Source: an uncultured Clostridia bacterium (GTDB taxonomy: Bacteria; Bacillota; Clostridia; Christensenellales; Aristaeellaceae). Taken from it: 37,795 nucleotides of DNA. Position 1 is the stretch's first letter, and each line of letters starts with the position of its first letter. Of the stretch, positions 4,414 through 37,719 are shown in pieces. The position numbers were made by a program, and so were the translations under genes. A model generated the notes under the pieces. It was given only the letters and a program-made list of their open reading frames with translations, was not told where the DNA came from and ran no database searches. Where the stretch lies: contig CANRLC010000022.1 in assembly GCA_947631405.1 (NCBI GenBank), forward strand, positions 1 through 37,795. The letters are read 5' to 3'.

Positions 4414-4419
4414 AGTATA
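4414..4419 (-). promoter_or_regulatory. Extended -10 promoter element of rdgB
   Basis: The minus strand reads TGGTATACT, an extended -10 of the type used at rpsT. It sits 28 nt upstream of the rdgB ATG. No good -35 box is seen. Confidence 0.5.
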
Positions 4420-4463
4420 CCACGTTTTGCGCGCAAAGGAAAGGGGCGGGGATTGCCTTCCCG

Positions 4464-5160: not shown

Positions 5161-5214
5161 GGCCAATCCCCCTGTGCCTTTTGTGGAATAGCTTATCACC
5201 TCGCGCGGCCCCTG

Positions 5215-9296: not shown

Positions 9297-10460
9297 TCAC
9301 GCCCCGCGCGTGTCGCGCGCACGCGCCTGCGCAAGCAGCGCGCGAAGCTGCTCCGGGTCGATCGGCTTTTCGAGGCACGCGTCAAAGCCGGCGCGCAGCG
9401 CCCGCGCGCGGTCGCCCTCCCCGGCGCTGGCCGTCATCGCCACGAGCGGGAGGGCTTGCGCGTCCTCCCTCGGCAGCGCGCGCAGGCGCATGGCGGTTTG
9501 CGCGCCGCCCAGCGACGGCATGCGCAGATCGAGCAGCGCCGCGGTGAACGCGCCCGGCCGGGAGCGCGCAAAGCGATCCAACGCCTGCGCGCCGTCGCTT
9601 GCGAGCGTCACATGCGCGCCCTGCGACGTCAGCCGCGCGCAGACGATCTGCGCCGCGAGCGCGTTGTCCTCCGCGACCAGCAGGCGTTCGCCGCGCAGCG
9701 CGTCCCCGGCGGGGCTTGCAGCCGCCTGCGGCGCGCGCATCGGCTGCGGCGCGCGCGGGGTCTGCAGCGCGCCCGGCGTCTCCGGCAGCGGCACGCACAC
9801 GGTGAAGCGCGTGCCGGCGCCCCAGCGGCTGTCCACGGCGATCTCGCCGCCCAGCGCCTCCACCAGCCGCTTCACGCTCGCCAGCCCCAGCCCGCTGCCC
9901 TCGACGCCCCGGCTCTCCGGCGCGCGCGCGAGCGGGTCGAACATCCTGCCCATGAACGCGCGCTTCATGCCCATGCCGTCGTCCTCGACGGTGAAGACCG
10001 CGCGCATCGGCTCGCCGTCCGTCAGGCACGCGTACAGCGCGATGTGCCCGCCCTCCTGCGTGTACTTGACGGCGTTGGTCAGCAGGTTTTGCAGGATGCG
10101 GCAGAGCGCCGCGCGCTCGCCCGTGAAGGCGCGGCCCGACAGCGCGCTCAGGTCGAGCGCGAGGCTTTGCCGCTTCTCCTGCGCCAGCGGCGCGACGAGC
10201 GCGCGCAGATCGCAAAGCAGCATTTCGCCCGTGAAGACCTCCGCCCGGCCCGCGCCGAGCAGCTCGCCCGCCATCGCGTCCAGCGCGCTGGCCGCCGACA
10301 GGATCTGCGTCAAATATTCCTCCACCTGCGCGCCGGAGCGCGCCGATTCCAGCGCGCCCTGCGCCGCGCCGCGGATGCTGCGTATCGGCGTGCGCAGATC
10401 GTGCAGCAGCAGCCCCAGCTGCTCCGCGCCAAGGCTCCCCGCCGCGCCCGCTCTTTCCAT
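9297..10460 (-). CDS. Hybrid histidine kinase with C-terminal receiver and no sensor domain
   Basis: This 387-residue protein starts almost directly at the HisKA helix with the phosphoacceptor His20 (LLHDLRTP). It continues with a HATPase_c domain (N box NLLTNAVKYT, G1 EDDGMGM, G2 GSGLGL) and, after a Pro/Ala linker, a receiver domain (AEDN acidic pair, phosphoacceptor Asp in LLDLRMPS, Lys in LEKP). No membrane segment, PAS or other input domain precedes the kinase, so it is a cytoplasmic module that probably receives signals through a partner. No cognate regulator or Hpt protein is adjacent. GGAGG lies 9 nt upstream of ATG 10460, and upstream is an AT-rich island. Confidence 0.9.
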   Translation of the reverse strand: MERAGAAGSLGAEQLGLLLHDLRTPIRSIRGAAQGALESARSGAQVEEYLTQILSAASALDAMAGELLGAGRAEVFTGEMLLCDLRALVAPLAQEKRQSLALDLSALSGRAFTGERAALCRILQNLLTNAVKYTQEGGHIALYACLTDGEPMRAVFTVEDDGMGMKRAFMGRMFDPLARAPESRGVEGSGLGLASVKRLVEALGGEIAVDSRWGAGTRFTVCVPLPETPGALQTPRAPQPMRAPQAAASPAGDALRGERLLVAEDNALAAQIVCARLTSQGAHVTLASDGAQALDRFARSRPGAFTAALLDLRMPSLGGAQTAMRLRALPREDAQALPLVAMTASAGEGDRARALRAGFDACLEKPIDPEQLRALLAQARARDTRGA

Positions 10461-10755
10461 GCTTAAAGCCTCCCTTGCGCCCTAGCGGCCTTCTTTGCGA
10501 ATATTCTATGATATATGTTTCAAATTCATGCGAAAAATGTGGCTTTAATTCGAGAAAAAGTTAATTTTCTTCACAAATTATGACATATTTCTCGGATTTT
10601 TGTCCCATTTCCCGCCTTTCGACCGCTTTCGCGCGCACTATTGCGCCGCCAAGTGTCTCCATCCGCCGCGGGGCGTTTCGCCATTTTCCCCTTGTATGCA
10701 AGGGCCGCTCATGCTATAATGCTTCTGGTAAAACCGCTTTAGAAAGGGGACGCTT
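10461..10755. other. AT-rich divergent promoter region
   Basis: This 295-bp gap holds no gene. Positions about 10500-10600 are strikingly AT-rich against the GC-rich surroundings and probably carry the kinase promoter: minus-strand TTTCGC-16 bp-TATCAT is one candidate, and no consensus pair stands out. The right part contains the promoter and a palindrome of the phosphoribosyltransferase operon. Confidence 0.5.
10689..10720 (+). promoter_or_regulatory. Promoter with overlapping palindrome for the phosphoribosyltransferase operon
   Basis: TTGTAT (10692-10697) and TATAAT (10715-10720, extended by TGC) are 17 bp apart. The -35 box lies inside a perfect inverted repeat, CCCTTG-TATG-CAAGGG (10689-10704), which could be an operator. 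Confidence 0.72.
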
Positions 10756-11388
10756 ATGGAAAACAGCTACGAGATCACCTCCTCCGCGGGGGTGTCGATC
10801 CATGTGACGCGCGGTCACTTCTCCACCAACCACTCGCACATCAACTACTATGTGGACACCACGACGCTGAAGGCCAGCCACAGCGATTCCGCCGCGGCGG
10901 CGAAGCAGCTGGCCGCCAAGTACGTCTACAACACGATGGTGGACACCATCGTCTGCATCGAGGGCACCGAGGTCATCGGCGCGTTTCTCGCGGACGAATT
11001 GACCAAGCAGGGCATCCGCTCCATCAACACCCAGCGGACGATCTACGTCATCCCGCCGGAATACAACAGCTCGAACCAGCTCATCTTCCGCGACAACATC
11101 CGCCCGATGATCGCCGGAAAGAACGTGCTGGTGCTGCTGGCGGACGTGACCACGGGCCGCACCTCGGCGCGCTGCGTGGAGGGCGTGGAATATTACGGCG
11201 GCATCGTGCGCGGCGTGTGCGCGCTCTTCAGCGCGGTCGATCAGGTGGCCGGGTACCCGGTGAACGCGGTGTTCACCACCAAGGATCTGCCCGATTATCA
11301 GGCGTACACCTCCGCCGAGTGCCCGTTCTGCAAGGGCAACGTCAAGCTGGACGCGCTGGTGAACAGCTTCGGCTACTCCGAGCTGTGA
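10756..11388 (+). CDS. Orotate phosphoribosyltransferase-like protein with C-terminal CxxC
   Basis: This 210-residue type I phosphoribosyltransferase has the PRPP-binding segment VLVLLADVTTGRTSARCVEG (about 124-143), which corresponds to the VVDDVxTTG loop of PyrE. The second acidic residue of the motif is absent here (LAD, not DD). A C-terminal CPFC (189-192) looks like a metal-binding or knuckle motif, also seen in some OPRT-like proteins. No other pyrimidine genes are near, so it may not be the housekeeping PyrE; salvage of another base is possible. AAAGGGG precedes ATG 10756. Its stop codon overlaps the GTG of the next gene. Confidence 0.78.
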   Translation: MENSYEITSSAGVSIHVTRGHFSTNHSHINYYVDTTTLKASHSDSAAAAKQLAAKYVYNTMVDTIVCIEGTEVIGAFLADELTKQGIRSINTQRTIYVIPPEYNSSNQLIFRDNIRPMIAGKNVLVLLADVTTGRTSARCVEGVEYYGGIVRGVCALFSAVDQVAGYPVNAVFTTKDLPDYQAYTSAECPFCKGNVKLDALVNSFGYSEL

Positions 11389-23172: not shown

Positions 23173-24348
23173 TTACCTCGCTCTGTCGATCTCCGGCAGC
23201 GGCACGCGGCGGTTCAGCCACGGCACGCCGCGCACGGCCATCCCCAGCAGCGCCGCGAGCAGGCCCCAGCGCAGCAGGCCCCGCCCCAATTCCACGCAGC
23301 AGACCTCCCGGCTCACGCAGCGCACGGCGACGGCGTTTTGCGCGTTCAGCGCCCAGAAGCGGCCCGTGAGCGAGGACAGCTCGACCACGACCTCCGGCAC
23401 CCACTCGGTGAACACCAGAAGCGGCGCGATCGCAAAGCGCGCCAGCAGGAACGCCGCCAACAGCAGCGCCGCGTAGGCCAGCAGCGCGAGCAGGCCGCGC
23501 GCGATCATCGCGGGCAGCAGGTCGCGCGCGTAGCGCGTCTTTAGCGCCTGCGCGAAGCCGCCGATCCTCCCCCACACGCGCGCATTCAGCCTGCGCAGCA
23601 GGGCCAGCAGCACCAGCGCGCCGGCGATCAGCGCGAGCCAGCGCAGCGGCATCGACGCGCCGAGCTTGAGCTTGCTCAGGCTGTAAAAGCTGCCGCCCGG
23701 CATCCATGTGGAGAGCGTGTCGCGCATGAGCGTCGCGGAGCCGATCTCGCTGACGGCGCGGCCTTGCAGCGTCACCGTCGCCACCGGCAGCGCGGCCTCG
23801 TCCGCCGCGGTGATCGGGATATAGGCGATGCGCGCGTCCGCCTCGCCGATGCGCTGTCCGCCCTCGATCACGCCGCCGACCTCAAAGGTCTCCCCGCTCA
23901 GGCGCACCGCCTTCCCGACCGCGTCCTCGCCCGGGAAGAGCTTGAGCGCCGTCGGCCTGTCCAGCACGATCACGCGCTCGGCGCGCTTCACGTCCCCCTC
24001 GCTGACGAGGCGGCCCTCCAGCAGGCGCTCGTAGCGCGCCTCAAAGTAGCCCGCACCAACCGCGTAGAGCGTCACCGTCTCGCTCGCGTTCCCCGCCTCG
24101 GCGGCCAGCCCCACGCCCTGCGCGCGCGCGGCGATCGCCGAGGCGGTCAGCATGTCGGTCATCTCGGCGAGGCGCTCCATGCCGCCCTCGTAGAGCGCCG
24201 TCAGTTCGCCGCCCTCCTGCGAGGCGGCGGGCGCGGGCAGCACATATTGCAGCATATCGGGCGTCGCCAGCAGCACGGCCGCGCCGCAGGCCATCAGCGC
24301 CGCGCCCAGCAGCAGGAGCAGCGCGCCGCCGCGCCGTTTACTGCGCAT
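23173..24348 (-). CDS. FtsX/MacB-type permease, last gene of the seven-gene operon
   Basis: This 391-residue protein has the layout of a type VII ABC permease: an N-terminal helix (about 7-28), a large extracytoplasmic domain (about 30-235) resembling MacB_PCD (for example GKAVRLSGETFEVGGVIE), and three C-terminal helices (about 238-258, 285-315, 355-375). Relatives work with a MacB/LolD-type ATPase in export or mechanotransmission, but no such ATPase is in the window. ATG 24348 overlaps the end of the upstream adaptor gene by 11 nt, so the two are translationally coupled, as MacA-MacB pairs often are. Confidence 0.78.
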   Translation of the reverse strand: MRSKRRGGALLLLLGAALMACGAAVLLATPDMLQYVLPAPAASQEGGELTALYEGGMERLAEMTDMLTASAIAARAQGVGLAAEAGNASETVTLYAVGAGYFEARYERLLEGRLVSEGDVKRAERVIVLDRPTALKLFPGEDAVGKAVRLSGETFEVGGVIEGGQRIGEADARIAYIPITAADEAALPVATVTLQGRAVSEIGSATLMRDTLSTWMPGGSFYSLSKLKLGASMPLRWLALIAGALVLLALLRRLNARVWGRIGGFAQALKTRYARDLLPAMIARGLLALLAYAALLLAAFLLARFAIAPLLVFTEWVPEVVVELSSLTGRFWALNAQNAVAVRCVSREVCCVELGRGLLRWGLLAALLGMAVRGVPWLNRRVPLPEIDRAR

Positions 24349-25672
24349 AGGCCATGACCTCCGAGCCGTCGTCGATGGCGCGATCCTCCATGTAGGCCAC
24401 GCGCTGGCGGCCAAGATCCTCCTCGATAGAGGCGGTGCTGCCGACCTCGGCGAGCACGGTCACCTTCTGGCGGGAGACGCGCATCACGCTCTCGCCCAGC
24501 CCGTTCTGCTCGTCCTGGATGAGGTAGACGTAGCGATCCTCGCCGGAGCCGCGCACCGCGCTCACCGGCAGCAGCGTCGTGGAGCTGGGCGCGCGATAGC
24601 TGACCGCCATCTCGATCGGGTCGCTCATCAGCGCCGCCGCGCCGCCCAGATTGCTGATCTCGCGGTCGGACAGCTCCACGTCCACATAGTTCTTTCCTTC
24701 GCTATCCACGCCCGTGTCCGTCACCTCGGCGGAGACGCTTCGCCCGTTGCTGCGCTCCATCGACACCTCGGTGCCCTCGCCGATGCGCCGCTCCACGTCG
24801 CTCACGTCCGCGCGCAGCGCGCCCTTGCTCTTTTTGGCGCTGAGCACCACGGCCGCCACGCCGTCTGCGAGCGGGTCGCCGGCCTTCACGTTCACCTCGA
24901 CCACATAGCCGTCGTGCGGCGCGACGATCGCGCCCGCCTGCTCGCACAGCACACGCAGCGCCGTCAGATCCTGCTCGGCCTGCGCGATCTGCTCCGAGAG
25001 CGAGCGGGACTGCGTGATGTACTCGACGAGGCTCTCGCTCACGCCCATCCGGTTCGCGCCGTTATACGCCTGCTGCGCGGCCGCCTCCGCGTCCTTCGCA
25101 TCTTCGAGCGCCTTGGCCGCCGCCTTGACGTCCTTATCCTTCACGCCGTCCGGCAGCGCGTCGCCCTCCAGCTCCACGCCCGCGATGCGCGCGCGAACCT
25201 CCAGCTCGGTGCGCGCGTCGCGCACGGCGGCCTTCGCCTCGCCCAGCGCGTCGTAGGCGGCCACCCACTGCTCCTCCAGACGGGTCAGCCGCGCGCCGCC
25301 GCGCTGGCGCTCCAAGGCGAGCAGATCGCTCTGCGCCTTGTCGTACTGCGCGCGCAGCTCGTCCATGCGCTCCTGCGCGCCCACGACCTCGGCCTCGATG
25401 AGGACGTCCCCCTCCTCGACCTGCTTGCCCTTCACCGCGCGCACGCGCCGGGCGATCACGCTCTGCGAGCCGATGCCCGTGAGGGCCACGTCCTCCGTCT
25501 CCGGGAAGACGAGCGTCCCGCTCAGCTTGATCTTCTCCTCCAGCTTGCCCTGCTTCGCGGTGACGATCATCACCTTGGCGGTCGAAAGCGTCTTGATCGT
25601 GCCGGAAAAGAACATGCACAGGCACACCACGACGGCCAGCGCGATCAGGCCCTTGATTGCGGTTTTCTTCAT
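24338..25672 (-). CDS. HlyD/MacA-like membrane fusion (adaptor) protein
   Basis: This 444-residue protein has one N-terminal membrane anchor (about 7-24), a beta-barrel/lipoyl half (IKLSGTLVFPETEDV...VIARRVRAVKGKQVEEGDVLIEAE), a long coiled-coil hairpin (about 98-240), the second lipoyl half (AGAIVAPHDGYVVEVNVKAGDPLADG) and C-terminal beta domains. This is the periplasmic adaptor layout of MacA/HlyD. In a Gram-positive cell such adaptors pair with MacB-type permeases. The downstream overlapping gene is such a permease. GAGGAG precedes ATG 25672. Confidence 0.87.
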   Translation of the reverse strand: MKKTAIKGLIALAVVVCLCMFFSGTIKTLSTAKVMIVTAKQGKLEEKIKLSGTLVFPETEDVALTGIGSQSVIARRVRAVKGKQVEEGDVLIEAEVVGAQERMDELRAQYDKAQSDLLALERQRGGARLTRLEEQWVAAYDALGEAKAAVRDARTELEVRARIAGVELEGDALPDGVKDKDVKAAAKALEDAKDAEAAAQQAYNGANRMGVSESLVEYITQSRSLSEQIAQAEQDLTALRVLCEQAGAIVAPHDGYVVEVNVKAGDPLADGVAAVVLSAKKSKGALRADVSDVERRIGEGTEVSMERSNGRSVSAEVTDTGVDSEGKNYVDVELSDREISNLGGAAALMSDPIEMAVSYRAPSSTTLLPVSAVRGSGEDRYVYLIQDEQNGLGESVMRVSRQKVTVLAEVGSTASIEEDLGRQRVAYMEDRAIDDGSEVMAYAQ

Positions 25673-25696
25673 CTCGTTCTCCTCGCCCCGCGGGCG

Positions 25697-26554
25697 TCAC
25701 TTCAGCTCCGTGAGCTGCACGCCCTCTAAGATGTCCGACTGGAAAAACAGGTAGATCAGCAGCGCGGGCAGCATGTAGAGCGCCGCCCCGGCGAACTCCA
25801 CGCCCGTGCTCTTCTGCGTGAGCTGGTTGAAGACCACCGAGAGCGGGTACAGCTCCTTGCGCGTGGTCAGGTAGGTCAGCGGCTGCTCGACCAGATTCCA
25901 GCAATCGGCGAAGGACAGCGCCGCCGCCGCGCCCAGCACCGGACGGCAGACCGGCAGCGCCACATACAGGAAGCAGCGGCCCGTGCCCGCGCCGTCGATC
26001 TGCGCCGCCTCGAACATCTCGGCGGGCAGGCCGATCATGTACTGCCGCAACAGGAAGATGTAAAACGGCGCGATCGCCATCGGCAGGATGATCGCCCACA
26101 CGGTGTCGATCAGCCCCAGCGCGCGCAGCGTGAGCACGTTGGGCACCATCGTCACCTGAAAGGGCAGCAGCATCAGCAGCAGGATGACGAAGAAGATCGC
26201 GTCCCTGCCCCTGAAGCGAAAGCGCGAGAGCGCGTAGGCCGTCATCGGCACGACGAGCGCCTGAAGCAGCAGGATCGCCGCCGCGTACATCGCCGAATTG
26301 ACGAAATAGCGCAGGATGGTCATGTCCTCGATGAGGATGTTGTAGTACTGGCTCAGGGAAAACATGTCCGGAGCCAGCTTGATCTCCATGAACGCCGACG
26401 CGTTGTAGCTGCCGCGCGTCTCCATAAAGGCGCGGATCTCCTCCGGAGAAAAGAAGGAATACAGCGCGGTCATCACCACGGGCAGCAGCAGCAGCGCCGC
26501 GAACGCCGCGAGCAGCAGGCGCGGCGCGATATGGCGTTTATGTGCCTTATGCAA
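25697..26554 (-). CDS. Carbohydrate ABC transporter permease, MalG type
   Basis: This 285-residue protein has six predicted helices and the EAA loop EMFEAAQIDGAGTGRCFLYVALPVCRPVLG (about 186-215) that contacts the ATPase in CUT1 importers. It would pair with the MalF-type permease encoded 12 nt upstream. Residues 37-70 form an extracytoplasmic loop as in MalG relatives. The C-terminal ILEGVQLTELK resembles the VEGLTAGAVKG end of MalG homologues. No importer ATPase is encoded nearby; a shared MsmK/UgpC-like ATPase elsewhere is the usual explanation. Confidence 0.92.
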   Translation of the reverse strand: MHKAHKRHIAPRLLLAAFAALLLLPVVMTALYSFFSPEEIRAFMETRGSYNASAFMEIKLAPDMFSLSQYYNILIEDMTILRYFVNSAMYAAAILLLQALVVPMTAYALSRFRFRGRDAIFFVILLLMLLPFQVTMVPNVLTLRALGLIDTVWAIILPMAIAPFYIFLLRQYMIGLPAEMFEAAQIDGAGTGRCFLYVALPVCRPVLGAAAALSFADCWNLVEQPLTYLTTRKELYPLSVVFNQLTQKSTGVEFAGAALYMLPALLIYLFFQSDILEGVQLTELK

Positions 26555-26566
26555 GCGCGTCGCCTC

Positions 26567-27421
26567 CTAGCTCAAATCGCGCACGGCGCGGCGCTGCGCG
26601 AAGAACAGCACGGCGAAGATCGCCATCACGATCACCGCGAAGGAATACGCGGCGGCGGTCACATCCTGATAATTGAGCTTCTCAAACATGTTGTTCATGT
26701 AGTTTTGCAGCGTGTAGACGGACTCGTCCGGGTACGCGCCCGCGATGAAGTAGACCTCCTTGAAGATCTTGAACGCGTTGATCCACGCGAGCACGAACAC
26801 CAGAAACGCCGACGGCGTGACCAGCGGCAGCGTGATGGTGACGGCCTGCCGCAGAAAGCCCGCGCCCTCCAGCGTGGCGTACTCGTAGAGCGGATGCGGG
26901 ATGGTTTGCAGCGCCGAGAGGAAGATGATCGTGCAGAAGCCCAGATTCTTCCACAGGAACATGAGCACGATGGGCAGGCGCAGCGCGCCGGATTCCAGCC
27001 ACATCACGCGTGAAAAGCCCAGCGCCACGCACAGGCGGTTGACCGGGCCGCCGAAATCGAAGAGCACCAGCCACGCCAGCAGCATCGCCGAGGAGGGCGC
27101 CAGATACGGCAACAGCACCGCCGAGCGCGCAAAGCCGCCGTAGGGCTTCACCGCCATCAGCGCCGAGGCGAGCAGGAACGAGAGCACCCACAACAGCGGG
27201 GCGCAGATGAGCGAAAGCTCCATGGTGTTTCGCAGGCCCGTCAAAAACATGGCGTTTTTCCACAGGCTCCTGTAATTGGCCATGCCCACGAAAACGTTTT
27301 TGTAGCTGCCGTCCGTCAGGCTGTAGCGCACGCCGCCCACCAGCGGCACGACGTAGAACACCATCAGCAGAAGCAGCCCCGGCAGCAGGAACAGCCAGAC
27401 CGATTTTTTCTTGACGAACAT
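26567..27421 (-). CDS. Sugar ABC transporter permease, MalF type
   Basis: This 284-residue protein has six helices, starting with the typical WLFLLPGLLLLMVFYVVPL. The EAA region is LYEYATLEGAGFLRQAVTITLPLVTPS (about 178-205), with the conserved EGAG Gly. It forms the channel dimer with the MalG-type protein. It lies 75 nt downstream of the solute-binding protein gene, with a hairpin in the gap. ATG 27421 has AAGGAGA 6 nt upstream. Confidence 0.92.
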   Translation of the reverse strand: MFVKKKSVWLFLLPGLLLLMVFYVVPLVGGVRYSLTDGSYKNVFVGMANYRSLWKNAMFLTGLRNTMELSLICAPLLWVLSFLLASALMAVKPYGGFARSAVLLPYLAPSSAMLLAWLVLFDFGGPVNRLCVALGFSRVMWLESGALRLPIVLMFLWKNLGFCTIIFLSALQTIPHPLYEYATLEGAGFLRQAVTITLPLVTPSAFLVFVLAWINAFKIFKEVYFIAGAYPDESVYTLQNYMNNMFEKLNYQDVTAAAYSFAVIVMAIFAVLFFAQRRAVRDLS

Positions 27422-27446
27422 GTCTTCTCCTTGGGCGCGAAGCGGC

Positions 27447-27475
27447 GGCGGAAGGGATCAAAGCGCCCTCCCGCC
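27447..27475 (-). promoter_or_regulatory. Intercistronic hairpin after the solute-binding protein gene
   Basis: On the minus strand GGCGGGAGGG (27475-27466) pairs with CCCTTCCGCC (27456-27447), one mismatch and a 9-nt loop, with no T-tract. Hairpins at this spot in importer operons often protect the binding-protein message and set its excess over the permeases; that role is inferred here. Confidence 0.55.
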
Positions 27476-27496
27476 GTTGCTGCGCTTGCGCGATGG

Positions 27497-29821
27497 TCAG
27501 TTGCCCTCCAGCCGCTGCGCTTCCAGCGTGGAGCTGAGCTTCGAGGCGAGCTGCTCGGCGCTGATCGCGCCGTCGATAAACTGATCCACCTGCGAATAGG
27601 TGTCCTCGCTCGACCAGAGGCTCGAGCGGGCGGGCACGAGGTAGGGCACCATCTCGCGGTAGCGGGCGATGCTCTCCGGGGAAACCTCCCAGCGGCCGTA
27701 CTTCTTGAATTCCTCGTAGTTCTCCTGATAGCTGCTCAGGCTCTCCTTGGCGGCCTCCAGCGCCTCGTCGTCCTCGTCTGCTTCCGCCTTGGCTACGGCC
27801 TCCTCCAGATCCTTGAGGGTGCCCTCGATCTCCTTGAGGTTGCTCTCGTAGTAGGGGGATTCGATCGGGTCGTTGCGGTTCGGGCACATCTGGATAAGGT
27901 TGCTCTCTTCGATCTCGTCCATGGCCATCTCGAGGTACTCGATCGCCTCCTCGCGGTGCTTGCTGAACGGGTTGACGAACGCCAGCCGCACGTCCGCGGA
28001 GATCATCGGCTCCTCGCCGTCCACGATGGAGAGCGGGGTGAACTCGTCCTCCACGCCGCCCCAGCCGCTGTCCACATACAGGCTGTAGTAGTTGAGCAGG
28101 ATGTTCTCCTCGTTCCACTCCCACATCTCGTCTTCCTCGTACTCCTCGGGCAGGCCGAGGCCGTACCAGTCGATTTCATTGTAGGCGTCAAGGAGCCTGA
28201 CCAGCACCTCGCTCGCGCGGGAGACGTGCGCCTCGTCCGCGTCCAGCCAGAGGAAGTAATCGGACAGCGCACTGTAGAGCACGCTGCTCTGCACGCTCTG
28301 GCGCGTGTAGCCCGGGCCGAGAATCTGCAGCTCCGGCGCCTCCTCGAGCTTGCCGTGGGAGAGATCAGCGATCACGCGGAAGACCTGCTCCCACGATGTG
28401 GGAAGCTCCTCCTGCGCGTAGCCCAGTTTCTCCGTGAGCAGTTTGTTGCTGATCTTCTGCGCGCTAGAATAGAAGCCGAGCGGCACGGCGTAAAGCTCTC
28501 CGTCCTTGAAGCACAGCTCTTGCAGGAACGGGTACGTTTCGTCCACCGCCGCCGTCAGCTTTTCGCTGCCGCCCAGCTCGGCCATGTAGCCGCGCGAAAG
28601 CAGGCGCGAATAGAGCTGCTCCGAGGAGCTGACGCAGTAGATGTCCACGTCGCTCTGCTGGCCCATCATCGCCTGCAGCACGTCGTCCTCCTCAATGCCG
28701 GAATGGCGCAGGGCGACCATGAACTCCGGATGCTTTTCGGTGAAGGAGAAGTAAGCGCCGTCCATCTCGCTGCTGCCGCCCTCGATGACGAGCCGCTGCT
28801 CGGGGGCCTTTTCCACCGTCACGTCGCGGCCGATCACTCCGTCGAACCCGCTGGTGACATACAGATCGCCCAGCAGCGCGGCGTTGGAGATCTGAACCGG
28901 CATGTCGGCAAACTCCTCCGCCTCGCCCAGCCCTTCCTCGGTGAGCGGCATGCGCCACACGCTGCCCGCGAGCGTGTAGTAGATCATCCCGCGCTCGGGA
29001 TCGTAGCACAGCGCGGTCGGCGTCTCCCAGTCGATGGTGGGCATCTCGCCCAGCTTTTCCGTCTCCTCGCTCTCCGGGTCGAAGACCAGCAGATCGGTGA
29101 CGGGCTTATCGCCGTTGTAGTCGTCCACGATGAGCAGCAGTTGCCCGTCGCCAAACGGCGCGATGGAGCCGATGGAGCCGCTGCTCAGATCCCAGTCCAC
29201 CGTCAGGCGGTCGACGTCCTCGTTTTCGATATCGACCGCGGCGATCTCCTGCCCGTTGTCGCCCCAGACGAGGCCGTAGACGATGCCGTCCATCGAGCAG
29301 GGCCGGCTCAGGTCGCTGTAGCCGGCGTAGCCGTCGCCGTAGTCCTCGGTCAGCTCGTCGCCCAGATCGTATACATCGCCCAGCGACAGGGAGCCGTCCT
29401 CGCCCACGATCATCTCCACCATCAGCACCGCGACCACGCCGTCGTCGTCCGCGATCTGCGCGCTGCGGAAGAGGCGGTCGTCCACCGCGTAGACCGCGCC
29501 GTTAAAGTAAAAGCGCTCGCCCTCGCCCAGCTCGATCTGCGCCTCGCCCAGATCGAGCGTGCGCTCGTTCTCGGTGTCAAAGTCGTTCTGGCGCAATTCA
29601 TCGTAGCCCTCGATCTCCACAAGGCCGCCCTCCTGCGACCATGTGTAGAGCTTGTCGTAGCTGGAGAGCAGCAGCCTGTCGCCGAAGACGAGCATGCTCT
29701 CGATGTAATCGTCAAAGCCGTCCTTGCCCTGCCGGGCGATGGTCACGTTGCCCGCCGCCAGCGCGCAGGAAGCGCCCAGCAGCAGCGCCAGCGTCAGGAT
29801 GAGCGCGATCGCTCTTTTCAT
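27497..29821 (-). CDS. Extracellular solute-binding protein with N-terminal propeller-like half
   Basis: This 774-residue secreted protein has a signal peptide (1-22, cleavage ALA-A). Residues about 25-355 are short beta repeats of the DGQLLLIVDDYNGD, GMIYYTLAGSVWRM and GDLYVTSGFDGVI kind, which look like a beta-propeller. Residues about 360-774 look like a family 1 sugar-binding protein: YFSFTEKHPEFMVALRH, then SDVDIYCVSSSE, GELYAVPLGFYSSAQKISNKLL, PTSWEQVFRV, and a late MISADVRLAFVNPFSKHREEAIEYLE. Typical binding proteins have 420-550 residues and no propeller. A Cys at 20 is a poor lipobox, so anchoring is uncertain. It precedes the two permease genes, as expected for an importer. Confidence 0.85.
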   Translation of the reverse strand: MKRAIALILTLALLLGASCALAAGNVTIARQGKDGFDDYIESMLVFGDRLLLSSYDKLYTWSQEGGLVEIEGYDELRQNDFDTENERTLDLGEAQIELGEGERFYFNGAVYAVDDRLFRSAQIADDDGVVAVLMVEMIVGEDGSLSLGDVYDLGDELTEDYGDGYAGYSDLSRPCSMDGIVYGLVWGDNGQEIAAVDIENEDVDRLTVDWDLSSGSIGSIAPFGDGQLLLIVDDYNGDKPVTDLLVFDPESEETEKLGEMPTIDWETPTALCYDPERGMIYYTLAGSVWRMPLTEEGLGEAEEFADMPVQISNAALLGDLYVTSGFDGVIGRDVTVEKAPEQRLVIEGGSSEMDGAYFSFTEKHPEFMVALRHSGIEEDDVLQAMMGQQSDVDIYCVSSSEQLYSRLLSRGYMAELGGSEKLTAAVDETYPFLQELCFKDGELYAVPLGFYSSAQKISNKLLTEKLGYAQEELPTSWEQVFRVIADLSHGKLEEAPELQILGPGYTRQSVQSSVLYSALSDYFLWLDADEAHVSRASEVLVRLLDAYNEIDWYGLGLPEEYEEDEMWEWNEENILLNYYSLYVDSGWGGVEDEFTPLSIVDGEEPMISADVRLAFVNPFSKHREEAIEYLEMAMDEIEESNLIQMCPNRNDPIESPYYESNLKEIEGTLKDLEEAVAKAEADEDDEALEAAKESLSSYQENYEEFKKYGRWEVSPESIARYREMVPYLVPARSSLWSSEDTYSQVDQFIDGAISAEQLASKLSSTLEAQRLEGN

Positions 29822-29852
29822 CGTTTCGTCCTCCTCTATTGCGAAAATGCCG

Positions 29853-30935
29853 TCACTCGACGTAGACCACGACGGTCATGCCGATGCGGACGGTCTCGTC
29901 CGGGGTGAAATCGACGTAGGCGACGTACTGCGCGCCGCCCCCCGCGGCCCCCTCCTTCTCCTCCTCGCGGACGTAGGAGATCGAGGCGATCTCGCCCTCG
30001 AAGCGGCGGCCGCTGTCGGCGTCCCAGTTGAACTCGATGCTCGCCTTGTCGCCGACGTTCACGTCCAGCAGGTCGGCCTCGGAGATGACCATCTTCACCT
30101 GCACGGCGTCCTGCGGGTAGACCGTGGCCAGCTTGGCGTCCTTCTCGACCGCCGTGCCGCTCGCGGCGTCCACGGTGGCGACGATGCCGTTCACGTCGCT
30201 GACGATCTGCGTATCCGGCGCGTAGAGGCCGTCGAGCGTGCCCTGCACGGTCTCAAAAAGCAGCTCGCCCCGCTCGACGACGTCGCCGGGCTTCACATGG
30301 ATGCGCAGCACGCTGCCCTCTCCGTTCACCGCAACGGGCGCGGTGCGCGCCACCGTGCCCCGGCCGATGCGCGAGGCGGCGGCGTGATCCGCGCTGCGGA
30401 AGACGTCCACGGTCTCGCCCATGTAGAATTCGCCGCCCGTCACCTCGACGCTGAAAGCCTCCTCGTTCTCATCGTCCAGCGCCGTCACGACGCCCTGCCC
30501 CTGATGGCTGCCGTCGCGCGTGCAGGAGAGGTAGACCGTTTCGCCGATGTGGATGTAGCGGTTTTCGCTGGAATTGTAGGCGCGCTCGGTGCTGCACGCG
30601 AGCGTGAAGCGGTGCAGCGGCTCGATGTACACCAGCGCGCCGTAGCGCGTCTTGATGTCCTCCGCCGCGTCGCCCTCGCTGGCGAAGACGCCGCTGATCG
30701 TGCCCTCGGTCATCGCGTAGGTCTTCTGCGTGTTGATGACCGCGATCGGATCCCCGATATGCACGCCGTCGCCGACGCGCACGCGCACGTCGCTGACGAT
30801 GCCGCCGAACGGCGCGGCGATCACCTGCGCTCCGCTGACCGTCACCTCGCCGGGAAACACGCTCTCCGCCCGCGCGGCCGGGCAGACGAGCGCCGCCAAC
30901 ATCAAAAGCGCCGCCAGCGTCCTCTTACTCTTCAT
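29853..30935 (-). CDS. Secreted HlyD-like protein with tandem lipoyl-like domains
   Basis: This 360-residue protein has a cleavable signal peptide (1-23, ARA-E) but no membrane anchor. The first lipoyl-like unit (about 27-70) contains APFGGIVSDVRVRVGDGVHIGDPIAVI. A second (about 200-270) contains LRIHVKPGDVVERGELLF and VSDVNGIVATVDAASGTAVEKDAKLATV, followed by a beta-barrel-like C-terminus (DKASIEFNWDADSGRRFEGEIASI). There is no coiled-coil hairpin, so it is a short adaptor variant. Its ATG overlaps the end of the preceding gene by 11 nt, and it lies 31 nt before the solute-binding protein gene. Confidence 0.8.
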   Translation of the reverse strand: MKSKRTLAALLMLAALVCPAARAESVFPGEVTVSGAQVIAAPFGGIVSDVRVRVGDGVHIGDPIAVINTQKTYAMTEGTISGVFASEGDAAEDIKTRYGALVYIEPLHRFTLACSTERAYNSSENRYIHIGETVYLSCTRDGSHQGQGVVTALDDENEEAFSVEVTGGEFYMGETVDVFRSADHAAASRIGRGTVARTAPVAVNGEGSVLRIHVKPGDVVERGELLFETVQGTLDGLYAPDTQIVSDVNGIVATVDAASGTAVEKDAKLATVYPQDAVQVKMVISEADLLDVNVGDKASIEFNWDADSGRRFEGEIASISYVREEEKEGAAGGGAQYVAYVDFTPDETVRIGMTVVVYVE

Positions 30936-33018
30936 CCTTCGCTTCCCCCTCTTGATCGCGCTTAAGATAGCTGCCGTAGGGCTTTTGCATCATCTCCACC
31001 GGGCCGACCAGCACGTCGTAGCGGTACATCGGCTGGGCGTGATCCTCCTCCAGCAGGTAGGTTTCGCCCTCCACCTGCACGCTGAGGGTCGTCTCGCGCA
31101 GCGCCTCGTCCTGCGAGAGCGTGTAGGCGAAGCGCCGCGTGGATACGCCGCCCGCCTTCATCTTGGCGTAGGCCGTGCCCGCGGTGAAGCCCGCCGTCGG
31201 CACCGCCGCCAGATAATCGCCGCTGACGAAGACCAGATAGTCGACACCGCTGTTGTAGAGCAGGCGGTACACGTCGCCGGAGAAGCTCCACACGTTCACC
31301 GCGCTCTCGCCCGTCGGCTCCGCCGTCAGCACGAGCGCGTTGCCGCTGTCCTGTTCCCCCGCCTCGCTCTGCCAGTCGGCGAGCCGCGCGGTGAAGGGCG
31401 CAGGCTCCGCCTTGCCGCCCACGTCGGCGGTCATGGAGAGCGAGAGCGTCGTGCCGCCCGCCGTCAGCGTGAGCGACGGCTCCTGCGGGAAGACCAGCTC
31501 CAGCGCGTTGTAATTGGCCAGCGAATAGTCGGTCGTCTGCGTCGCATGCTTGATGCGCTTGCCGCCGCCCCCGCCGCCGCCCACGCGCGGGCGGTCGCCG
31601 AAGACGAACTCCTCAAAGTTGGCGGAGACGTTGCCCGCGCGGTCGCGCGCGAGGATCGTGCCCGGCTCGACGACCTCGCCCTTCTCGCCCACGACGGAGC
31701 CGCCCTTCTCCTCGTCGAACGGCTGCCAGCTGTAGCCGCCGTCCGTGGAGACCGTCTCCACGCCGCTGAGCGCGTCCGTCGCGGTGACCCCCGCCACGAT
31801 GTCGCTCTCGTCCAGCAGATAGAGGTACGGGCCGTCCGGCGGGGTCATATCGAGCCACACGTCAAACTGCTCGGAGAGCGCCTGTACGTCGCCCATCATG
31901 TCGAGGATCGCAAACCGGAAGCTGACCTCGCCCTCCACCGTGGGGACGTAAGTCGTCTCGCCGTCGGCGAGCAGCACCAGCATCTCCCCGCAGACGAACA
32001 CGCCGTAGACGGCCTCTTCATCCGGCCGTATGCCCGAGAGCGTAAAGGTCGGCGGCACATTTTGCCACGCGCCGGGCGTCAGGCCCTCCACGCTCACGCT
32101 CAGGCGGGGCTCCGGCGAAGGCGTCGGCGTCGGCTCCTCGGCCGGTTCATCCGTCGGCGGCGGCGTCGCGATCTCCACCTCGCCGGGGGCGAGCGTCGGA
32201 TGCGCGGGCTGCTGCGCGGGGTCGCCGTCCGGGTCTTCCCCGTCGTTTTCCTCAACCTTTTTGCGCGCCACGGTGACGACGATCTCGGGCAGCGCGTCCG
32301 GCGCGGCGTCCGGCGGCAGCGTCCCCTCCTCGATTTGAACCTCGTAGGGGCCGTCCTCCTCGCCCAGCGCCTCGCGGTCGGCGCGCAGCTTCACGCGGTC
32401 AAAGAGCGACATCGGGATGTCCGTGAGCGCGTACTCGCCCAGCGCCGTCAGGTACACCGTCGCGCGCGCGTCGCTTTCAAGCATCTCCTCCAGCACGGCC
32501 TGCAGCGTGTCGTCCAGCACCGTGCCGTCCTCCAGCTCCGTCCACGCCTCGCCCTGCGGCGCGTAGTCCTCCGGCTCGGGGGTCTCCTCATTCCCATCGG
32601 AGGGAACGGGCAGGATCGACTGGCCCGGCGCGCCCACCGGCGGGACGGCAGGCTCCTGCCCGCCGCCTTCCTGCGGGGGCTGCAGCGGCTCCGGCCCGGC
32701 GGCGCCCTGCGCGTCGGCGAGGTTCAGATCGCCGCCGCCCTGCGCGCCTTGCGCCTCGTCGGGGGCCGGTTCGCCGCTCTCCTCCACTTTTTGTTCTTCT
32801 TCCGGCGCATTGCCGCCGTCGTCCTCCACATCTGTAGTATCGGCAGGATCTGGAGACGGGCTTTCCTCCACTTCCGGCTCTTCGGCGGCCGCAGGCGGAG
32901 CGCTCTCCTCCACGGGCTGCGCCTCCTGCGCCTCCTGCGCGGTCGCCTCGCAAAGCGCGGACGGCGCGCAAGCGCCCAGCAGCGCCACGGTCAGCGCCCA
33001 TGCGATCAGCTTCTTCAA
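30925..33018 (-). CDS. Secreted or lipoprotein Pro/Glu-rich protein with Ig-like region, first gene of the operon
   Basis: This 697-residue protein starts at TTG 33018 with GGAGGA 5 nt upstream; a frame extending to 33231 runs through the promoter and is not used. The signal sequence ends in LLGAC (Cys16, possible lipobox) or ALC-E. Residues about 22-165 are a low-complexity acidic Pro/Ala/Glu/Gln linker, likely a wall spacer. A second Pro/Glu/Thr linker follows (about 270-310). Then come an Ig-like segment (VWLDMTPPDGPYLYLL, TVSTDGGYSWQPF, ILARDRAGNVSANF), a run of seven Gly, and a C-terminal beta-rich domain. No enzyme motif is recognised. It could present or anchor the complex at the surface. 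Confidence 0.7.
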   Translation of the reverse strand: MKKLIAWALTVALLGACAPSALCEATAQEAQEAQPVEESAPPAAAEEPEVEESPSPDPADTTDVEDDGGNAPEEEQKVEESGEPAPDEAQGAQGGGDLNLADAQGAAGPEPLQPPQEGGGQEPAVPPVGAPGQSILPVPSDGNEETPEPEDYAPQGEAWTELEDGTVLDDTLQAVLEEMLESDARATVYLTALGEYALTDIPMSLFDRVKLRADREALGEEDGPYEVQIEEGTLPPDAAPDALPEIVVTVARKKVEENDGEDPDGDPAQQPAHPTLAPGEVEIATPPPTDEPAEEPTPTPSPEPRLSVSVEGLTPGAWQNVPPTFTLSGIRPDEEAVYGVFVCGEMLVLLADGETTYVPTVEGEVSFRFAILDMMGDVQALSEQFDVWLDMTPPDGPYLYLLDESDIVAGVTATDALSGVETVSTDGGYSWQPFDEEKGGSVVGEKGEVVEPGTILARDRAGNVSANFEEFVFGDRPRVGGGGGGGKRIKHATQTTDYSLANYNALELVFPQEPSLTLTAGGTTLSLSMTADVGGKAEPAPFTARLADWQSEAGEQDSGNALVLTAEPTGESAVNVWSFSGDVYRLLYNSGVDYLVFVSGDYLAAVPTAGFTAGTAYAKMKAGGVSTRRFAYTLSQDEALRETTLSVQVEGETYLLEEDHAQPMYRYDVLVGPVEMMQKPYGSYLKRDQEGEAKDEE

Positions 33019-33273: not shown

Positions 33274-34260
33274 ATGACCGCTACAATAAAGGTTGGCCCG
33301 GGCGAGGCGTGCGCGACCCTCGCGCAGGCTTTCGCCGCCCTGCCGCCCGATGACGGCACGCCCGCCGAGATCCGCCTCGCGCCCGGCGTCTACCGGGAGA
33401 AGACGGCGCTCTGCCGCGCGAACACGGCCATCGCCGGCGCGTCCGCCGAGAGCACGCGCATCGTCTGGGGCGACCGCGCCACCGAGATTCTGCCGGACGG
33501 GCAGAAGCGCGGCACCTTCCGCACGGCGACGCTGCGCATCGACGCGCCGAACGTCGCCCTGCGCGGCCTGACCATTCAAAACGACGCCGGGCCGCGCGAG
33601 CTGGCGGCGCAGGCCGTGGCGCTCTACGCCGACGGCGACGGCTTCCTGTGCGAGGACTGCGTGCTGCTCGGCGCGCAGGACACGCTCTTCACCGCGCCGC
33701 TGCCGCCCAAGGAGATCGAGAAGAACGGCTTCATCGGCCCCAAGCAGTTTGCGCCGCGCACGCCGCAGCGCCACACCTACCGCCGCTGCCGCATCGAGGG
33801 CGACATCGACTTCATCTTTGGCGGCGCGGCGGCGTGGTTCGATCAATGCGACGTGGTGAGCATCGACGCCCGCTCCGACCGCTCCTCCCCCACGGTCGGC
33901 TACGCCACCGCCGCCTCCACGCCGGAGGGCCAGCGCTTCGGCTACGTCTTCGACCGCTGCCGCTTTCTAAACGGCGGCGCGAGCAAGGGCTGCGTGTATC
34001 TGGGACGCCCGTGGCGGGACTACGCGAAGACCGTTCTGCTGCGCTGCTATCTGGACGACCACATCGCCCGCGCGGGCTTCCACGACTGGAACAAACCCGC
34101 CGCGCGCGAGCGGATGTTCTACGCGGAATACGGCAGCGCCGGCCCCGGCGCGGCGCCTGCCGGGGAGCGCGCGCCGTTCGTGCGGCGGCTGACGGACGGG
34201 CAGGCCGCGGCGATCACCTACGAGGCGTTCCTCGCCTCGCTTCAGGACGCGACTCTGTGA
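33274..34260 (+). CDS. Pectinesterase (CE8 family), no signal peptide
   Basis: This 328-residue right-handed beta-helix enzyme would demethylate the galacturonate backbone of pectin, giving pectate and methanol. Family motifs are QAVALYADGDGFLCEDC, LLGAQDTLF (the Gln and first catalytic Asp), IEGDIDFIFGGAAAWF (second catalytic Asp) and YLGRPWRDYAKTV (Arg and Trp). No signal peptide precedes the domain, which starts TIKVGPGEACATLAQAFAALP, so it probably acts in the cytoplasm on imported methylated oligosaccharides. AAGGAGA lies upstream of ATG 33274. Confidence 0.93.
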   Translation: MTATIKVGPGEACATLAQAFAALPPDDGTPAEIRLAPGVYREKTALCRANTAIAGASAESTRIVWGDRATEILPDGQKRGTFRTATLRIDAPNVALRGLTIQNDAGPRELAAQAVALYADGDGFLCEDCVLLGAQDTLFTAPLPPKEIEKNGFIGPKQFAPRTPQRHTYRRCRIEGDIDFIFGGAAAWFDQCDVVSIDARSDRSSPTVGYATAASTPEGQRFGYVFDRCRFLNGGASKGCVYLGRPWRDYAKTVLLRCYLDDHIARAGFHDWNKPAARERMFYAEYGSAGPGAAPAGERAPFVRRLTDGQAAAITYEAFLASLQDATL

Positions 34261-34340: not shown

Positions 34341-34907
34341 TTACCACGCGGTCAGATCCTCCGCGTCGAGCACCTCCTGCGCCACCTGCGCAAGGCGGCT
34401 GCCGGTGTCCATACTGCGCTTCTGGATGCGGTGATGCGCCTCCGCCTCGGTGAGGCCCAGCGCGTCCATGAGGCGGCCCTTCGCCCGGTCGATCAGCTTG
34501 CGATCCTCCAGAGCGCGCTCCAGCTTGTGCGTCTTGAAACGCAGCTCGTTCATGCGGCCGTGGCAGTAGCGCATCGTCCGCACGCTTTGCAGCAGCGCGT
34601 CCGGGCTGACGGGGTTGCGCAGCGCCAGCGCGCTGTCGCCCGGCGTCTCCTGATAGTCCGGCGGGACGATCATCAGCACGTCGTAGGCGTCGCCCAGCCG
34701 CTCGGCCAGTTCCGATCCGGTCATGTCGGACAGGCGCCACGTCGTCAACATCACCGCGCCCTCCCGGCGCACGGCGGCCAGCGCCTCCGCCCCCGCGGCG
34801 TACACGGCGTCCGGCTTGAGATTGGCCGCGGAGAGAATCCCCTGCAGCTTTTCGGCGGTCGCCGTCGGCGCGGCGACAACTATGCGTTCCATCGTCCCAT
34901 CGCTCAT
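34341..34907 (-). CDS. ANTAR-domain RNA-binding antiterminator with degenerate receiver
   Basis: This 188-residue protein has an N-terminal receiver-like fold (about 7-112) and a C-terminal ANTAR domain (about 128-185: LEDRKLIDRAKGRLMDALGLTEAEAHHRIQKRSMD). ANTAR proteins bind paired hexaloop hairpins in nascent RNA and prevent termination. The strand that normally ends in the phosphoacceptor Asp reads AVMLTTWRLSDMTG, with Thr in place of Asp, so control by ordinary phosphorylation is unlikely. GGGGGA lies 7 nt upstream of ATG 34907. It is monocistronic; the RNA targets are not known. Confidence 0.88.
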   Translation of the reverse strand: MSDGTMERIVVAAPTATAEKLQGILSAANLKPDAVYAAGAEALAAVRREGAVMLTTWRLSDMTGSELAERLGDAYDVLMIVPPDYQETPGDSALALRNPVSPDALLQSVRTMRYCHGRMNELRFKTHKLERALEDRKLIDRAKGRLMDALGLTEAEAHHRIQKRSMDTGSRLAQVAQEVLDAEDLTAW

Positions 34908-35501: not shown

Positions 35502-35517
35502 GAAAGGAGTGCGTGCG

Positions 35518-37719
35518 ATGATCCCCCTCTATTTTGAAGCGATCTATGCTACAGAGGCCCGGCCGGAGCCGTGCAGCGCGGCCGTCGCGCTGCGCCCGGG
35601 CGAATTGCAAAGCGCGGCGCGCGTGCGCGTCTACGACGAGACGGGCCGTCCCGTGCCCACGCAGGCGCGCGTCACGGCGCGCCATCCCGACGGCAGCGCG
35701 CGCTGGCTCCTCGTGTGCTTCATCGCGCGCGTGCCCGCGATGCGCTCCGCCGTCTACCAGCTCTCGCTGGACGGCGGCGAGGAGGCGGAGGGCTTTCCCC
35801 CGCTTGAGGCGACCCCCGCGGGCCTCGACGCCCCCGGCCTGTCGCTGCGCGTGAGCGAGCGGCCCGGCGCGCTCTTTGAGTCGATCGCAGCGGGCGGCGT
35901 CTCGTTGGGCGCGGATGCGATCGGCGCGCCGGAGCTCATCGACGCGCGCGGCGATCGCTACGATTTCGCCGTGGAGCGCTGGGAGGTCGCCGAGTGCGGC
36001 GAGGTCTGCGCCACGCTGCGCGCCGTGGGCTGGCACAGCCTGCGCGGCGAGCACCGCTACAAGGGCGAGATCGCCGTGACCGTGTGGCGCGATTCGCCCG
36101 CGTTCGAGCTGCGCTACCGCCTCGTCAACACGAGCTTGGAGCCGCTTGCCATCGGCAGCCTGACGATCGCGCACCGCCGCGGGCGCGGCGCAAATCCGCG
36201 CAGCGCCGTGGGAATCTCCAACTACAAGACGCGAACTCAAATCGGCGAGGGCGGCGCGCCGGTGAGCGTGACCATCGACGACCAGTTCCTGCTCTACGAG
36301 GCGAACGAGCACAACGCCGAGGTCTTCTTCGGCACGTTCTTCGCCGACTGCACGGACGAGACGGGCGGCCTGTGCGCGACGATCCATCAGGCGCAGCAGA
36401 ACTACCCCAAGGCCTTCTCGGCGGACGCCTGCGGCTGGCGGGCGATGCTCGTGCCGCAGGGCGTGGGCAGCGTGGTGATGCAGGGCGGCATGGCGCGCGA
36501 GACGCGGCTGCTGATCCATCCCCATGCAAAGGAGGAGAGCCTCGAAGCGCTCGCCGACGCCTCCACGCGCTACCAGATGCCCAACCGCCCGCGCGTGGAG
36601 CCGGAAATCTACGCGCGCAGCGGCGTGCTGGAGGACGTGTTCACCGCGGATCCGGATGTGGAAATGTTCCTCGAGGCGCAGGCGGACGCCCACGCGCGCT
36701 GCTACGGCATGCTCAACTGGGGCGACTCGCCGGACGCGGGCTACACGGCGCAGGGGCGCGGCGGCGGCGCGCCGGTGTGGACGAACAACGAATACGACTA
36801 TCCGCATGCCTGCGCGCTGCTCTACGCGCAGACGGGCGTGCGGCGCTATCTCGATTACCTGCTGGTCAGCGCGCGCCACTGGATGGACGTGGACATCTGC
36901 CATTACAGCGACGACCCGCTGCTGCTGGGCGGCCAGTGGGAGCACACGGCCGGGCACTGCATCGGCGGGCGCGTGATGTGCTCGCACCAGTGGGTCGAGG
37001 GGCTGCTCGACTACTATCACTTCACCGGGGACGAGGAGGCGCTGCGCGCCGCCGTCGGCATCGGCGAGGTCGACCTGCGGCTGCTGGAGACCCCGCAGTT
37101 CAAGACCCCCGGCGAGACGACCGCGCGCGAGACGGGCTGGGCGCTGCGCGCGTTTGTGGCGCTCTACAAGGAGACGAACGACGAGCGCTGGCTCGCCCCG
37201 TGCGATCGCATCGTCTCGCACTTCGCCGCGTGGGAGGAGCGTTACGGCCTGTGGCTCTCGCCCTACATGGACAACACGCGCATCCGCGTGGTCTTTATGA
37301 TCTCGGTCGCGGTCGCCAGCCTGATGCGCTATTACCGGGTGTGCCCGCAGGAGCGCGTGCGCGGGATGATCCTGCGCGCGGTGGACGACCTGCTCGATAA
37401 CGCGCGTCTGCCGAACGGGCTATTCTACTACAAGGAGCTGCCCAGCCTCAAGCGCTTTGGCAACAACCCGCTGGTGCTGGAGGCGCTCGCCATCGCCTAC
37501 GAGCTGACGGGCGACGCCAAATACCTGCGCGCGGGCCTGCCCACGCTGCGCTATGTGATGGGCAACCGGGCCGCAGGCTCCGCCGTGAGCGCCAAGCGCG
37601 TGGTGGGCGACGCGGTCGTCTGCGCCGGGCCGGGAACCAAGGGGTTCGCGCAGCTGATGCTCCCGGTGGCGTCCTTCTCCGCCGCCTGCTGCAGGGCGGG
37701 GCTGGATGTAGGCCGCTAA
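35518..37719 (+). CDS. PcRGLX-like (PL26-like) protein with RIFT-barrel N-terminus, no signal peptide
   Basis: This 733-residue protein starts at ATG 35518, since AAAGGAG (35503-35509) overlaps the alternative GTG at 35509. The N-terminal part, with YDETGRPVPTQARVTARHPDGSARWLLV, looks like the RIFT barrel of exo-rhamnogalacturonan lyases (PL26). The middle and C-terminal parts have helical-barrel features: NEYDYPHACALLYAQTG, GHCIGGRVMCSHQWVEGLLDYYHFTGDEEAL and LALAYELTGD-like repeats. PL26 enzymes cleave unsaturated units from rhamnogalacturonan; activity here is inferred. No signal peptide is seen, which fits a cytoplasmic role together with the pectinesterase. The alternative is another six-hairpin glycosidase-like family. 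The element end at 37720 follows the stop codon directly. Confidence 0.6.
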   Translation: MIPLYFEAIYATEARPEPCSAAVALRPGELQSAARVRVYDETGRPVPTQARVTARHPDGSARWLLVCFIARVPAMRSAVYQLSLDGGEEAEGFPPLEATPAGLDAPGLSLRVSERPGALFESIAAGGVSLGADAIGAPELIDARGDRYDFAVERWEVAECGEVCATLRAVGWHSLRGEHRYKGEIAVTVWRDSPAFELRYRLVNTSLEPLAIGSLTIAHRRGRGANPRSAVGISNYKTRTQIGEGGAPVSVTIDDQFLLYEANEHNAEVFFGTFFADCTDETGGLCATIHQAQQNYPKAFSADACGWRAMLVPQGVGSVVMQGGMARETRLLIHPHAKEESLEALADASTRYQMPNRPRVEPEIYARSGVLEDVFTADPDVEMFLEAQADAHARCYGMLNWGDSPDAGYTAQGRGGGAPVWTNNEYDYPHACALLYAQTGVRRYLDYLLVSARHWMDVDICHYSDDPLLLGGQWEHTAGHCIGGRVMCSHQWVEGLLDYYHFTGDEEALRAAVGIGEVDLRLLETPQFKTPGETTARETGWALRAFVALYKETNDERWLAPCDRIVSHFAAWEERYGLWLSPYMDNTRIRVVFMISVAVASLMRYYRVCPQERVRGMILRAVDDLLDNARLPNGLFYYKELPSLKRFGNNPLVLEALAIAYELTGDAKYLRAGLPTLRYVMGNRAAGSAVSAKRVVGDAVVCAGPGTKGFAQLMLPVASFSAACCRAGLDVGR

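Follow-up and report, generated by a model that had tools for sequence, protein, structure and literature searches.

A sugar-importer-like transporter of gut bacteria that appears to have inherited two drug-export-pump parts as components of one machine

A 37,795-nucleotide stretch of DNA from an uncultured Clostridia bacterium of the family Aristaeellaceae (contig CANRLC010000022.1 of assembly GCA_947631405.1; this whole stretch is referred to below as the window) carries a seven-gene operon, g1 to g7, that appears to encode a sugar-importer-like ATP-binding cassette (ABC) transporter of gut bacteria in which two parts of drug-export pumps are inherited together with the importer as one machine. 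Judged from the sequences of many relatives, its core consists of MalF (g4), MalG (g5), a membrane-anchored adaptor (g6) and g7, a protein with the extracytoplasmic core domain of MacB, usually accompanied by one to three binding proteins such as g3. A preliminary description of this DNA had reported seven minus-strand genes, together with their positions and spacing, and the absence of an ATPase gene among them; the open frames confirm the former, and of the 64 ABC_tran matches in the genome, the contig of the window carries none. The genes are as follows.

30925-33018, minus strand: g1, secreted surface protein, 697 amino acids, start placed at an internal ATG
29853-30935, minus strand: g2, secreted HlyD/lipoyl adaptor without membrane anchor, 360 amino acids, Pfam HlyD_3/lipoyl over cut-off
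27497-29821, minus strand: g3, identified by its family profile as a solute-binding protein, with an N-terminal propeller part, 774 amino acids
26567-27421, minus strand: g4, MalF-type permease, 284 amino acids, EAA loop EYATLEGAG, Pfam BPD_transp_1 over cut-off
25697-26554, minus strand: g5, MalG-type permease, 285 amino acids, EAA loop EAAQIDGAG, Pfam BPD_transp_1 over cut-off
24338-25672, minus strand: g6, membrane-anchored HlyD/MacA-like adaptor, 444 amino acids, lipoyl and HlyD Pfam matches below cut-off
23173-24348, minus strand: g7, membrane-helix protein bearing the extracytoplasmic core domain of MacB, 391 amino acids, Pfam MacB_PCD over cut-off

The gaps from g1 to g7 are -11, 31, 75, 12, 24 and -11 nucleotides. 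The start of g7 was set at 24348, an internal ATG, so that the protein begins MRSKRRGG. NCBIfam returned adaptor-type matches for g2 and g6, both below cut-off, and Pfam searches with the single g1 and g3 proteins gave chance-level matches only. Promoter-like sites (one seen, 1.0 expected) and terminator-like sites (nine seen, 5.5 expected) were also counted.

The arrangement is beyond chance, and its order recurs in other species, genera and families. Among 60 related genomes searched, strong g7 matches were found in the same genus and in two other genera. All seven genes stand in order in six same-genus genomes (loci L039, L041, L042, L043, L045 and L046, with g1 cut by a contig end in some) and in one genome of another genus (L048); the neighbourhoods of L040 and L044 are cut by contig ends, and L047 and L049 vary in gene set, L049 having the four core genes without g1 to g3 and a g3 relative on another contig. 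In L047 the g3 relative (3573-5786) is split into two frames, with one stop inside the match. On a wider scale, a g6 profile (E<=1e-15) matched 131 of 308 genomes of the family, in 35 of its 50 genera; at the level of the order 22 of 396 genomes matched and at that of the class 2 of 391, all of them within the same family. A scan of contigs with the single g6 protein had given 114 pattern hits, none of which was confirmed, and its alignment-based repeat yielded 27 loci.

From the hits we selected 79 distinct g6-bearing stretches, deduplicated by g6 and partly picked for diversity, two of which (L076 and L078) are pieces of one assembly. MalF, MalG, g6 and g7 are contiguous and in this order in 71 of the 79 (69 recognized by script, L123 and L154 by eye), and seven others are cut by contig ends (L070, L074, L075, L076, L078, L121 and L133). 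One genome, G105, holds two modules (L131 and L132), each with all four core genes. Where at least 9.5 kb of upstream sequence was available, a g3-type binding protein is encoded on the same strand in 46 of 47 loci (one copy in 28, two in nine and three in nine), g2 is present in 25 and g1 in 22; g1 and g2 are best described as optional accessories, since each is found in only part of the loci. The position of g2 also varies, as it follows g7 in L115, and in L123 (2271-5232) a tandem pair of g6-type adaptors lies between MalG and g7. We also read 11 other MalF-MalG pairs of the window's own genome, and the 2-5 kb flanking them encode neither an adaptor nor a MacB-core protein. The co-occurrence in the same order that the preliminary description proposed to look for in relatives is thus found for the four core genes, and the importer genes and the adaptor/g7 genes, rather than standing apart in most relatives, travel as a unit in nearly all loci; the union of the two sets holds, but the unit of seven genes shrinks to a core of four.

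Phylogenetic trees point in the same direction. In a tree of 60 MalF proteins, all 42 module MalFs fall in one clade of 45 rows (support 100/99), which also holds two undetermined rows and the MalF of L188; the other 15 non-module MalFs lie outside. The L188 protein (9356-10981), a MalF relative of 541 residues encoded without an adaptor, is possibly a fused permease. A tree of 43 adaptors sets the 33 module adaptors apart from five ordinary adaptors and five g2-type proteins (100/100). Four subgroups are common to both trees (L183-L184; L174-L185-L186-L187; L177-L182-L189; L164-L176-L178-L180). The trees indicate one origin of the module, and the comparison of loci as a whole shows that MalF, MalG, g6 and g7 were inherited jointly.

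The module can be followed beyond the family. With a MalF profile (E<=1e-45), matches were obtained at the level of the order in 30 of 357 genomes, of which 21 belong to the family and nine do not, and at that of the phylum in 7 of 338, one of them the window's own. This gave 18 more distant loci, 17 from the MalF profile together with L164, two of which (L181 and L182) are second modules in family genomes. The adaptor directly follows MalG in 15 of the 18, and L172 and L173 are cut by contig ends; a g7-like gene follows the adaptor, by profile, in nine (L174, L175, L177, L182, L183, L184, L185, L186 and L187), the g7 of L182 barely reaching MacB_PCD (27.5 bits against a cut-off of 27), and the stretches of L180 and L181 end too early to show g7. 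In the unannotated record OY725868.1 of Subdoligranulum variabile TSDC17.2-1.1, a binding protein is encoded together with MalF, MalG and an adaptor, and a g7-like gene is present with a weak match of 23 bits. In four of the distant loci (L183, L184, L185 and L187) the next gene after g7 encodes a MalK-type ATPase with ABC_tran and OB_MalK domains. The linkage, these in-operon MalK genes and the MalF and adaptor trees together argue that the adaptor and g7 are components of a CUT1-type importer and not of a second pump missing its ATPase. The mixture of importer and exporter parts noted in the preliminary description is therefore real and goes together, but the two missing ATPases, or the import-export pair, that it envisaged give way to a single ATPase of MalK type, seen after g7 in 4 of the 18 distant loci.

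The features of g7 are consistent with this view. MacB_PCD is found in all 58 family g7 proteins (E<=0.1), with the core domain placed between the first two membrane helices. The FtsX domain is present in none of the 58, in contrast to four of four ordinary MacB controls, which have both FtsX and MacB_PCD, and an FtsX coupling motif, searched with a pattern that we wrote ourselves, is absent from all 58, and every one of the 19 ordinary MacB rows examined (17 distinct) contains it. Profile alignment of g7 with ordinary MacB spans the core and the second helix and ends at the start of the coupling helix; according to PMC5985334, it is between helices 2 and 3 that the major coupling helix lies. 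Among solved structures, the g7 profile matches MacB, YknZ and one ABC permease, 5xu1; these matches cover the core domain and, where they are longest, the first helix as well. By hydropathy, the core in the g7 proteins of L174, L185, L186 and L187 is flanked by a single hydrophobic helix at either end, two in all. In the g7 of the window, the long loop before the last helix carries an EWVPE motif. Given the absent FtsX/coupling part and the two-helix forms, g7 is best seen as a membrane-held MacB core domain that lacks the FtsX permease part. The original assignment of g7 as an FtsX/MacB-type permease is thus right for the core domain and wrong for the FtsX part, and a second, MacB-type ATPase supplied from elsewhere is hard to accommodate with a protein devoid of MacB's ATPase-coupling part.

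The most conserved window of 27 residues in g6 is its membrane anchor and exit (residues 8-34; 0.72 versus 0.45 elsewhere, p=1.7e-9, 74 sequences). At the exit of the anchor, the signature FF[SAG]x[TS][ILV] occurs in 61 of 80 family proteins and 9 of 16 outgroup adaptors, versus none of five ordinary adaptors, and the two observations suggest that g6 has a fixed partner in the membrane. The second adaptor, g2, falls on the ordinary-adaptor side of the tree, together with the second adaptor of a MacAB locus in the window's own genome. That locus (L050, G000:C9, 2907-6864) consists of an anchored adaptor, a 230-residue ATPase, a MacB with FtsX and a secreted g2-related adaptor, and the same four-gene set is found in another species of the genus (L051). 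Both g1 and g2 carry secretion signals. In g1, the signal sequence, with a lipobox-like LGAC in the window copy, is followed by a linker rich in proline and acidic residues, a part resembling immunoglobulin or fibronectin type III (FnIII) domains and a C-terminal domain without assigned fold; the FnIII match is weak (E=0.0027), and the g1 protein of the window has no Pfam match at E<=0.01.

The permeases have the coupling loops of importers: a simple pattern finds EAA loops in 71 of 74 MalF and 65 of 77 MalG relatives. An importer without an adjacent ATPase is ordinary, because shared "multitask" ATPases such as MsmX have been described (PMC7658222). The only OB_MalK protein of the genome is an orphan, MsmK-like ATPase of 373 residues (G000:C2:69488-70609) on a contig without a BPD_transp_1 match; an ATPase of the MacB kind is present in the ordinary MacAB locus L050. 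The OB_MalK protein has D77, R104, E110 and K154, four positions that PMC7658222 describes as tested in multitask ATPases, and this single, distant protein is probably the ATPase of the importer in this genome.

The binding protein g3 can be described as a beta-propeller fused to a sugar-binding domain. Its family profile matches CUT1 sugar-binding structures over approximately residues 326-643, best the xylo-oligosaccharide-binding protein 3zkk (E=3.6e-15), and its N-terminal part (within residues 1-335) matches YncE-like beta-propellers (8bai, E=1.3e-7), giving an architecture of N-terminal propeller, CUT1-type sugar-binding domain and tail. The earlier identification of g3 as a solute-binding protein agrees with the family profile, although g3 alone has no solute-binding Pfam match; SBP_bac_8 is found in 31 and SBP_bac_1 in 18 of 61 family members. 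The module-adjacent binding proteins of L185, L187, L174 and L189 are also long, with open frames of 794-948 residues. A second g3-type binding protein of the genome (L162, G000:C57, 6644-8926), on a contig without a MalF or MalG match, may feed the same importer. Among 79 family g3 proteins with a detectable signal sequence, 69 have no lipobox. We considered the missing lipid anchor as a sign that g3 is tethered to the other extracytoplasmic subunits and dropped the idea, as six other binding proteins of the genome with a readable start also lack a lipobox. These six (L190, L191, L193, L197, L198 and L199) are CUT1-type proteins with signal peptides. The genome has no Omp85 match, and on this one marker we have taken the envelope to be single-membraned.

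We consider it probable that the module is a CUT1-type importer with two additional, MacAB-derived subunits, driven by the MsmK-like ATPase and bearing on its MalF-MalG pair (MalFG) a crown through which substrate is fed inward. MalFG, powered by the orphan ATPase on C2, would move the substrate into the cell, and g6 and g7 would sit on the outer face of MalFG as an extracytoplasmic crown or funnel, with the membrane helix of g6 touching MalFG or g7. The crown may dock one or several propeller-type g3 proteins and guide the substrate through the wall zone to MalFG, and in part of the family g2 and g1 may extend or tether it. MacA forms a hexameric funnel (PMC5985334), and the simplest use of the parts would be a funnel on top of MalFG to which the propeller protein delivers substrate. 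That such systems make up a class of Bacillota ABC importers with a new architecture, in which a tunnel derived from MacA and MacB stands on MalFG, efflux parts work in reverse as an uptake conduit through the wall zone and substrate comes from one or more propeller receptors, is a more tentative proposal, about which we remain somewhat doubtful.

Several observations weigh against a crowned importer of this kind. The inward direction of transport is predicted from homology, and the contact of g6 and g7 with MalFG is a prediction too; the control for anchor conservation in ordinary MacA comprised two sequences and gave no result. L141, one of the 79 stretches, has g6 and g7 beside a divergent binding protein on a 4-kb contig without MalFG, and L188 has a module-type MalF and no adaptor. 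With the g6 profile the ordinary adaptor L161 reaches 54.6 bits, more than the weakest module adaptors do, the g7 of L177 is below the MacB_PCD cut-off at 15.2 bits, L179 and L189 carry a protein of the right size in the right place without a Pfam match (that of L189 reaching 23 bits with the g7 profile), and the EWVPE-type pattern as written is found in 32 of 58 g7 proteins. In L164, L176 and L178, g7 was not detected after the adaptor and would not be obligatory everywhere. Three of the four in-operon MalKs deviate at multitask positions (L183 at two, L185 at one and L187 at two, mapped by offset), which is fitting for dedicated ATPases, such residues alone not being decisive. Finally, among 115 of 249 flanking frames, drawn at random and scanned at E<=1e-10, no family occurred in more than three, and a substrate, even a sugar, is not indicated.

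The last point would suit a machine that does mechanical or signalling work instead of uptake, in which g7 and g6 would transmit MalK-driven motion of MalFG to wall or surface proteins in the manner of FtsEX or Lol systems. Mechanotransmission is known for proteins of MacB architecture (a passage of PMC5985334), sugar-use genes do not recur in the flanks, and g1 and g2 are secreted. We nonetheless regard this as unlikely in view of the importer parts that are retained, namely the binding proteins, of which 46 of the 47 loci with enough upstream sequence have at least one and some operons as many as three, the EAA loops, and MalK in four distant operons.

Two further explanations would keep importer and exporter parts functionally apart. 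The operon could simply co-transcribe two independent machines, a CUT1 importer and an adaptor/MacB relic that has no energy source of its own; members of both fold families occur, and L164, L176 and L178 keep the adaptor without a detected g7. Such an accidental pairing is quite improbable when set against the linkage in 71 of 79 stretches, the one origin and shared subgroups in the MalF and adaptor trees, the two full four-gene modules of G105 and the lack of adaptor or MacB-core genes at all 11 other MalFG pairs. Alternatively, g6 and g7 could form an exporter driven by a borrowed MacB-type ATPase that is encoded at another place in the genome, while the importer works beside or opposite to it. 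The genome does offer an ordinary MacAB locus with its own 230-residue ATPase and its many ABC_tran matches, but a borrowed motor is very hard to reconcile with a g7 that has neither the FtsX domain nor the coupling signature, with the two-helix g7 of four relatives and with MalK-type ATPases encoded directly after g7, and we give this explanation very little credence.

The crowned importer that we favor can be placed between two known designs. With CUT1 importers that use a shared ATPase, such as AraNPQ-MsmX, it has in common two permeases with EAA loops, a sugar-type binding domain and an ATPase of the MalK/MsmX type probably supplied in trans; it differs in the added anchored HlyD/MacA-like adaptor and MacB-core membrane protein and in the propeller of its binding protein. 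MalEFGK2 is a further CUT1-type importer for comparison. With MacAB and YknXYZ, tripartite efflux systems of the Type VII ABC group, it shares the adaptor family and the MacB extracytoplasmic core domain, whereas the MacB ATPase, the FtsX domain and the coupling signature are lacking and the parts are attached to an importer. The L050 locus of the same genome resembles it in a second adaptor that groups with g2 and differs in having its own ATPase, an FtsX-containing MacB and no MalFG match. A tunnel role is also familiar from Mla/MCE lipid transporters. The likeness to these is one of analogy only, an ABC core with an extracytoplasmic tunnel or bridge (as in passages of PMC10665443), and none of the seven operon proteins has an MCE (MlaD) Pfam match at E<=1. 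We found no paper describing such a set of importer and efflux parts in the open-licence literature of PubMed Central, and the passages available from PMC10094684 contain no importer with an adaptor. These comparisons of sequence identify the module as an inherited variant of CUT1 importers with efflux-derived subunits.

Other genes of the window are mentioned here for completeness. A plus-strand pectinesterase gene adjoins the operon, and a neighbouring plus-strand protein has weak GH127/PcRGLX matches (33274-34260 and 35509-37719). Pectinesterase is not among the families that occur in at least two of the 115 flanking frames scanned, so the pectin-type genes beside the operon are not a recurrent neighbour. 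An ANTAR-domain protein (34341-34907, minus strand) is encoded on the operon's strand, upstream of it and beyond the pectinesterase gene, and a cluster of four tRNA genes (Lys, Gln, His and Arg) lies at 2835-3174 on the minus strand.

Importers usually count as one design and tripartite efflux pumps as another. An importer lineage that stably holds an efflux adaptor and a MacB core would show that such parts are separable from export, and labelling genes of this kind as efflux subunits may mislead. Two questions thereby become testable: what role an adaptor plays where there is no outer membrane, and how substrate is guided in such cells through the wall to an importer.

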